Shown here piece by piece: positions 48,201 to 51,200 of a stretch of DNA of 64,000 bases; position 1 is the stretch's first letter, and each line of letters starts with the position of its first letter. This DNA is from Dysidea avara (lineage: Eukaryota > Porifera > Demospongiae > Dictyoceratida > Dysideidae), in the NCBI RefSeq assembly GCF_963678975.1, contig NC_089279.1:30654660-30718659 (forward strand). The letters run 5' to 3'. Below the pieces are notes generated by a model that was not told the DNA's origin, ran no database searches, and saw only the letters and a list, made by a program, of their open reading frames with translations. Position numbers and translations under genes: made by a program.

Positions 48201-51200
48201 ATTATCTAGTACTATAGCTTCAACCCAGGGACACTTATATGCATTATAATTAATGTACTATTTGCATAATATTATAGCAATTTGCTGAGTTTTGATTCAT
48301 TAAAATATTGAAAGTCTCTCAGCAGGTGGAACTCGATACTGCTGTTGGAACCTCCCATCAAAAATCCTGGCTTACACTCCTGTCTGATCTCTATTGTAAT
48401 ATTAATTGTGCAACTGAACATATGCCTCAACTATTGAAAAGTAAAGTGGCCATTCCACCTTGTTTTCAACTATTTCCACTCATTATACAGCATTACAAGC
48501 AATGACCAGTGCCTCTGCAGTCAGTACAGAAAATTGCAGGCAATTCTCATAATAGCCAATACTTAAGCCAAGATCTGATACCACAATAAACACCTATATG
48601 AAGTAATGGAGGAAGAACTAGGACACAAGTGAGGGCGAAGGTGCGTGCATTGTACATGTGACTGCTGTGGTTGGCAAAAAAACAACAACCAACTTTGAAA
48701 AGTGAAGAAACTAAGCCCATAGCTTTGACCATCAAATTATCCTAGGCAAAGACATCAGTGAGTTAGTAGAAAATTCAGTTGAAATTAAAATAATAATTGA
48801 AGGGTTTGGGGTTACTCTGCAGACATTTTTAGGCTTAATTAAGCCAAATCAATACTGCCAAGCTGACATGAAGGAAAATTGAGGCTGGTTTTTGACTGAT
48901 ATATTTGGCCAGGAAATCCCAAACCTTACTATAGAATTAAGGTCAATACACTTGTGCTGGTGTAATCATTAATGGCAAAAGGTATTTTTATGAAGATGTT
49001 TGGCATAGATTTTGAGGGTGTCTTTTGGATTACTATTAATGGTTAGCCAATTAATGTTTTTCAGGACCATATGGACCACCGGGACAAGACGGAATGAAGG
49101 GAGAGAAAGGTGCATTAGGACTAGATGGTCCAAGAGGATCACCAGGGAAACGAGGAAAACCTGGGCAAGATGGGTTACCAGGACTTCAAGGTGTGAAAGG
49201 AGACCAAGGAGCTCCAGGACTAGATGGTCCACGAGGGTCACCAGGGCAACGTGGAATGAAAGGAGAACCAGGGAAAGATGGATTACAAGGACTTCAAGGA
49301 ATGAAAGGAGGACAAGGTGCTCCAGGACTAGAGGGTCTGCGAGGATCACCAGGGCAACGAGGAAAACCTGGGCAAAATGGGTTACCAGGACTTCAAGGTG
49401 TGAAAGGAGACCAAGGGGCTCCAGGACTAGATGGTCCACGAGGGTCACCAGGGCAACGTGGAATGAAAGGAGAACCAGGACAAGATGGATTACAAGGACT
49501 TCAGGGAATAAAAGGAGGATGAGGTGCTCCAGGACTAGAGGGCCTGCAAGGATCACCAGGACAACGTGGAATAAAAGGAGAGCCAGGACAAGATGGATGT
49601 CCAGGATTTCGAGGAGTGAAAGGAGAGCAGGGGGCACCAGGACTAGAGGGTCCAAGAGGATCACCAGGTCAACAAGGAATAGTGGGAGAATCTGGACCAC
49701 AAGGAAAAAGAGGAAAACCAGGACAAGATGGGCCACAAGGATTACCAGGACCAGAAGGAACAGTGGGAGAACCTGGCTTACCAGGACAACGGGGGTCACC
49801 AGGGGGACGTGGGTTTAAAGGAGAACCAGGTGATACAGGACTAGCTGGACCTCAAGGAATTAAAGGATTGAAAGGAAAAATTGGCTCTTCAGGACCACAG
49901 GGACTACAAGGAGCAATGGGTCCACAAGGATTGCCAGGTGAACAGTTAATTACTAAAACTAAAAGTACTTTTAATAAGGCAAATATGTATTAGTTAACAA
50001 CTACGTATAAAATGCAAATTCGTATTACAACTAAAACTAAACCTATAACTAAAAACAATGGAATAAAACTAAGGAAATATCTAACGCTACAACTAAAACC
50101 AAAAAATTTTCTTATGTACAACTAAACTAAAAGGTTTTTATATGCATAACTAAATTTATAACTAAGAGATTTTCATGTTTTTAAAACTAAATCTGTAACT
50201 AAAAGAAATAAAGAAAGATTAGTAAAATTATTAATGAAACTAACTAGCTATGACTATAACTAAAGCTCCTTACTAAAACAATGCTGTGTAACAGGTGAAC
50301 AAGGATTAAGAGGAGAAGTTGGTTCTCCAGGACTACAAGGAGAACAAGGGATAAAAGGAAAAACAGGCAATCCAGGAACTGTAGGGCCACAGGGAGTTAC
50401 AGGGATACAAGGATCAAAAGGAGAAATTGGAGCTCCAGGATCACAAGGTCCGCCAGGAAATCAGGGATATCAAGGACCTCCAGGAGCAGTTGGAGTGCAA
50501 GGTCAAAACGGTCATCCGGGCCCTATGGGACCAACTGGTCCTCCTGGAGAACAGGGTCTACCTGGTCAACATGGTTTGCCTGGAGAACAGGGTTCACCTG
50601 GTGTTGTTGGATCACAAGGCCTTACTGGTAGTCCAGGTAATACATAGATTTAGCTACGAGATATGAATACATCTTGAGAGGGTGGTGATACTTATGTAAT
50701 TAGTTTCTTTAGTTTAACCACAAAACATGGACACCATGCATTTATATACCACTAGCATGAAGCTATTAATATGATTGCTTCAAAATTGAGTACATATAAG
50801 TACTTACACATGCAGTTCTTACTAATGTGCATACTGATGTTGTACCTATATATCAGGGAAAACTGAAGCATTGTACATTCGTTGGGGCCACATTCATTGT
50901 CCAGAAACTGCAGAGGTGATCTATTCTGGTAAAATGGCTGGTGCTAACCATGAAGAAAATGGAGGAGGTAGTAATGCTCAGTGTCTACCAGTAGATCCAG
51001 AGTACTCAAATGATGTCAGTATCACACAGAAGAGAGCTTATATATATGGAGCAGAGTTTGACAGTGCTGCATCTGTTGTAAACCATGACATTCCTTGTGC
51101 TCTTTGTCTTGCTAATCGCTCTACTACTTACATGGTGCCAGCTAAAGTTAATTGTCCCAGTGGATGGACCAAAGAGTACAAAGGATATCTGATGACATCT

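Follow-up and report, generated by a model that had tools for sequence, protein, structure and literature searches.

How did a transposon-derived sequence come to lie inside a coding exon of a sponge collagen gene, and has it been spliced out as a new intron? The question is raised by a 64,000-nt stretch of Dysidea avara DNA (C8:30654660-30718659; hereafter the window), in which genes A and B are members of a collagen cluster with a C-terminal exon that resembles short-chain collagen C4. An initial annotation had proposed that a MITE recently became an intron of gene B through an exact duplication of its target site, in the manner of introner-like elements. The transposon-derived insertion in the coding exon is real and ordinary in kind, and its origin is less tidy than was claimed.

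The insert in gene B and its collagen paralogues

The helix exon of gene A (7289..8431, plus strand) matches the Pfam Collagen domain and, as the initial annotation had read it, runs uninterrupted over 1143 nt; it has Gly in 127/127 triplets. In gene B the corresponding exon is divided into a left part of 873 nt (49065..49937, plus strand), whose Gly-X-Y frame and edges were read from the sequence, and a right part of 342 nt (50295..50636, plus strand), which is followed by the C4-like C-terminal exon with its stop (50857..51380, plus strand). As had been described, the two parts are separated by 347 bp lying between two identical copies of the direct repeat CAGGTGAACA. The left copy (49935..49944, plus strand) includes a predicted donor, CAG|GT, and the right copy (50292..50301, plus strand) a predicted acceptor, AG|G. 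Together these would delimit a GT-AG intron of 357 nt in phase 1 (49938-50294, plus strand), the removal of which leaves 1215 nt with Gly in 135/135 triplets and one stop. The predicted 49937/50295 junction does keep the frame (CCA G|GT GAA CAA) and the Gly-X-Y pattern is unbroken across it. Conditioned on a GT-AG intron with the exon ends of gene B, the probability of an in-register repeat of at least 10 nt is 0.0009 with the base composition of the insert, or 0.002 with that of the exon. If the insert were retained, translation would end 18 codons past the site.

The sole stop of the spliced exon is an in-frame TGA at codon 153 (49520..49522, plus strand), which breaks the reading frame upstream of the insert in the same exon. 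It was overlooked in the earlier reading and would now truncate the gene B product. In two protein searches, which between them admitted candidates of about 234-1680 aa, no protein of gene A or B came up. Position +5 of the predicted donor, CAG|GTGAAC, is not the customary G, and the acceptor has a poor pyrimidine tract. The predicted intron has the same phase and CAG|G context as the other introns of the gene. CAGG occurs 39 times in the gene B exon, with 32 of these copies in phase with the introns of the gene, and 43 times in that of gene A (33 in phase). Sequence inserted close to two such sites could use a latent donor or acceptor and leave Gly-X-Y undisturbed. The insert is 76% A+T and contains 17 CTAA motifs, one of which lies within TACTAAAAC, ~20 nt before the predicted acceptor.

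A genome search with the C-terminal exon gave at least 150 matches (189 candidates, of which 150 were scored), and among the matches listed only gene B itself, A (97%), D (87%) and C (79%) exceed 52% identity to the gene B exon. All four lie on contig C8 within ~63 kb. The C-terminal exon of gene B is intact, and its protein is 97% identical to that of gene A. Gene D, the fourth member (C8:30727540-30729019, just right of the window), is decayed, with a helix that holds no long frame and one stop in the C-terminal exon; in a tree of the C-terminal exons it groups with A (support 0.934). The third member, gene C (63083-64000), is truncated by the window end, and its C-terminal exon has no stop. 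Its helix exon begins downstream of the gene B insertion site, which the alignment of the gene C helix does not reach.

Comparison with the related copies bears out that a transposon-derived insert sits in the coding exon of gene B and is missing from A and also from D, the decayed paralogue. In gene D, A-like sequence continues through the site without the insert, though it is shorter than in A. The claim that no base was lost or gained fares less well, being true only against the repeat: in the best alignment A holds 36 nt that are absent from spliced B. One MAFFT alignment places this 36-nt gap at the splice point, and BLAST agrees, aligning A 7324-8063 with B 49208-49938 and A 8095-8444 with B 50291-50649; another MAFFT alignment places it elsewhere. 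Because the tree joins D to A, a loss in B and a gain in A and D are indistinguishable. The helix exons of A and B differ by several other indels, and the position of this one at the splice point may be a coincidence.

The MITE family and the ends of the insert

The MITE family behind the insert is as real as had been supposed, with at least 61 matches in the 550.8-Mb genome (486 candidates, 40 scored). Its complete copies start with TAGTGTTGTTTTAGT, end with ACTAAAACAACACTA and carry 8-bp duplications on their flanks. Filtering for target site duplications (TSDs) with at most one mismatch gave 20 pairs, from which four were dropped as pairings inside arrays and 16 were kept. The TSD is exact in ten of these elements and has one mismatch in six, and in all 16 it abuts TAGTG-like and CACTA-like ends. 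The kept elements span 312-1286 bp: four of 312-400 bp have one arm, two measure 490 and 555 bp, and ten fall between 777 and 1286 bp. Longer copies have two arms around a unique middle. TSD length and the start of the terminal inverted repeat (TIR) suggest a hAT-like MITE family. It shares with hAT-type MITEs the 8-bp TSD and the TAGTG TIR start, and differs from them in its two-armed ACTAAAAC-array structure. The window itself contains one complete two-armed member of 916 bp with 15-nt TIRs (20352..21267, plus strand), flanked on both sides by the TSD ATTGTTCA (20344-20351 and 21268-21275). What had been reported there as two further copies are the two ACTAAAAC arms of this single element. 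Directly to its left lies a tandem array with periods of 21 and 42 bp (TTCAATTGCAAACGGGACAAA...; 20100-20317).

Within gene B, family matches cover 49944..50286 (plus strand). The similarity begins at 49944, 6 nt inside the predicted intron, and extends to ~50283-50286, 8-11 nt before its end, so that the insert aligns nearly end to end with a single-arm element, starting within the left TIR and reaching the right one. Its first letters, AGTTAA, belong to the inner portion of the left TIR. The outermost 12-14 nt are absent rather than just diverged, because homology to gene A reaches CCAGG. The right side reads ACTAAAACAA-TGCTG-TGTAACAG. When the right ends of 48 distinct loci were compared, 36 had CACTA, five had CACCA and seven had other ends seen once each; among these 48, TGCTG occurs in the gene B insert only. 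The gene B copy thus shows no full TIRs, its homology to the family consisting of the element interior and the inner TIR.

Two readings of these ends compete, a 10-bp duplication and an 8-bp duplication combined with the loss of one base and of a TIR, and their chance values are similar. Under the second, TGTAACAG at 50287..50294 (plus strand), which ends in the acceptor AG, may be the right copy of the TSD, and TGAACAG at 49939..49945 (plus strand) a decayed left copy; TGTAACAG matches the left TG-AACAG with one gap (chance 0.003). This reading calls for three substitutions among five end bases in addition to those two losses, and we prefer it because of what is known of transposition. The exon before insertion would be expected to read CCAGG-TGTAACAG-GTGAACAAGG under the 8-bp reading and CCAGGTGAACAAGG under the 10-bp scheme. 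Adding 9 nt back to the gene B exon gives GLP-GVT-GEQ, a perfect helix with Gly in 136/136 triplets. The proposal that CAGGTGAACA is the exact target duplication is not supported: the family duplicates 8 bp, and the insert has a clipped left TIR and an odd right end, so that the 10-bp repeat does not pass for a clean duplication of the target. Short repeats that flank an intron perfectly need not stem from target duplication.

Age, constraint and origin of the insert

Divergence from the family consensus was measured on a set of 54 rows obtained with an anchored probe. The 5' part of the insert differs at 6/108 sites (5.6%), with 11 gap positions, and across 26 TIR-type copies the distance ranges from 0 to 6.0%, with a median of 2.8%. 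Between genes A and B, dN is 0.017 and dS 0.23 in the C-terminal exon, and dN is about 0.16 and dS 0.28 in the helix. Judged from these sequence distances, the insert looks younger than the A-B split, at 5.6% against roughly half of dS (12-14%). The description of the gain as recent is only a relative one, since this copy stands at the old end of the family.

Spliced in the predicted way, the helix of gene B has no frameshift, and in the helix of gene D every long frame is gone. At the age of the insert, ~15 changes would be expected in the 135 Gly codons of gene B without constraint (~5 at 2%), and none is seen. Lineage-specific changes polarised by gene C comprise two non-synonymous and four synonymous ones in B, and three and ten in A; such numbers are too small to reveal constraint on B by itself. 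The intact codons of B could also be owed to gene conversion from A. The maintained constraint suggests that the insert probably worked as an intron. Gene B might accordingly be described as a broken gene with a formerly used intron, perhaps broken in this allele only.

Our preferred history, to which we give about an even chance of being right, is a MITE insertion after the A-B split that was spliced via latent CAG|G sites, with the nonsense codon arising later. A single-arm hAT-like MITE of ~357 bp would have entered the helix exon of gene B after B left A; homology to the family and absence from A and D show the insertion itself, and we infer the order of events. The insertion point would already have offered both splice signals, CCAG|GT as donor and ACAG|G as acceptor, the exon being dense in CAG|G protosplice sites, and the MITE would have supplied A+T-rich sequence with many CTAA motifs as candidate branch sites. 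The element could then have been removed as a 357-nt phase-1 GT-AG intron. Its junctions would have been remodelled, the outer left TIR being gone and 36 nt of A absent in the best alignment. In the detail that we favour, the TSD would be TGTAACAG, with TG-AACAG as its decayed left copy. Spliced B would then be short of 9 nt, one Gly-X-Y triplet (GVT), in comparison with the exon before insertion, and part of the 10-bp repeat would be coincidence. Constraint on gene B would have lasted for some time, the nonsense codon arising afterwards.

Other histories deserve consideration. The scheme originally put forward, in which insertion duplicated CAGGTGAACA, the two splice sites arose from that duplication and the exon was restored exactly, accounts for a perfect 10-bp repeat in the right register and for the restored frame. 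We nonetheless regard it as unlikely, given family TSDs of 8 bp, the 36 nt of A that are absent from B in the best alignment, and an insert that runs from at least 12 nt inside the left TIR to 5 nt past the right TIR, which is no transposase product. Alternatively, gene B may already have been dying when the MITE entered a pseudogene or non-coding copy, where it would have gone unspliced, the GT-AG being accidental to the repeat. The in-frame TGA upstream of the insert, the weak donor, the decay of the neighbouring paralogue D and the failure of two protein searches to find an annotated gene B protein would all suit such a history. A dead gene would, however, hardly be expected to be free of frameshifts and to keep Gly in all 135 triplets, where ~15 Gly hits are expected at ~5% age, or to retain an intact C-terminal exon with a protein 97% identical to that of A, and we find this history improbable.

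Capture of a MITE fragment during repair of a double-strand break in the exon, with ~36 nt lost and the short repeats produced by end filling, would explain why TIR ends and exon sequence are missing at one point. New introns of Daphnia carry 4- to 12-bp direct repeats that PMC4202315 ascribes to staggered breaks. Yet the fragment is almost whole, each end lying no more than ~14 nt from the true one, an outcome expected only rarely from random capture, and the 36-nt difference cannot be polarised; we think repair of this kind distinctly unlikely. Least credible to us, with a very slim chance of being correct, is that the MITE landed in an older intron at this position that A and D have since lost. 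The phase and CAG|G context do match the gene's other introns, but the remnant of such an intron outside the MITE would be just ~6-8 nt per side, and neither A nor D has an intron here.

Relation to introners and to known cases of intron gain

That a transposon inserting at AGGT can give rise to an intron is an accepted model, for which PMC3443670 and PMC3296678 describe cases in Drosophila, Oikopleura, Oryza and Zea. Gene B is like the introns described there in having a transposon in a coding exon, GT-AG at or near a duplicated target and a kept frame. Also in Drosophila Doc1053 (PMC3296678) the downstream TSD is off the intron end, lying 15 nt past it. The present case differs in being a hAT-like MITE in a sponge, with remodelled junctions and with splicing predicted from sequence. 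It shares short direct repeats (4-12 bp there) with the Daphnia neointrons attributed to staggered-break repair in PMC4202315, and differs from them in that the insert is nearly a whole member of a mobile family.

Introners, according to PMC9860276, account for 27,563 introns in 175/3,325 genomes, and among animals and land plants were found in two groups only, both of them animals. The likeness of the gene B insert to these elements lies in a non-autonomous DNA transposon with TSD and TIR and in a predicted near-exact removal by splicing. In the same source, the insertion site provides both splice sites of some introners, and the coding length is altered by some. Introners recur, with 5 to >2,000 copies per genome in that account, whereas a single exonic copy is known here, and those others that were examined in Dysidea avara sit outside recognised exons. 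The comparison with introners made in the initial annotation is apt for the MITE similarity near both splice sites and, as far as the copies examined show, falls short on recurrence, no second exonic copy having been recognised among them.

No further exonic copy was recognised among the 16 complete copies or the 30 loci read. AGGT stands 0-6 nt before an exact left TIR at 55 sites in the genome; 30 of these were read, two had a paired 8-bp TSD, and AGGT is absent from both of those TSDs. Many of the loci read with AGGT before the TIR are near-identical sites of the form CCAGGT-TAGTGTTGTTTTAG-(T/C)AGCTGTTAT, which from their sequence look like a different repeat containing the same TIR-like string. 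Open reading frames over the empty sites of the 20 pairs are 32 to 125 aa long, against 199 aa at the gene B site in the same 600-nt frame. With no second exonic copy among those examined, the hAT-like MITE of gene B would not, on present evidence, be classed with an introner family. That the ACTAAAAC family might act as an introner, with further exonic copies spliced elsewhere in the genome, would draw on its arms rich in CTAA branch-site motifs and on a CACTA right end that would place a TAG acceptor before any G-initial target, and we consider it very doubtful. If true, it would be the first sponge introner family in the literature searched. By title or abstract start, that literature (which leaves most subscription papers outside) gave no sponge case of such an intron gain.

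New introns of animals whose source can still be recognised are few. In a collagen exon with CAG|G about every 30 nt, mostly in one phase, an insertion may be absorbed by in-frame splicing. Collagen genes are therefore a place to seek recent intron gain.

Elsewhere in the window, the minus strand carries an exon of a TGF-beta family ligand with propeptide and ligand domains (13789-14685; Pfam PF00688 and PF00019), as well as an open reading frame (19121-19534) with the end of an RNA recognition motif, which scores just below the Pfam cut-off (19.3 vs 20.7 bits).
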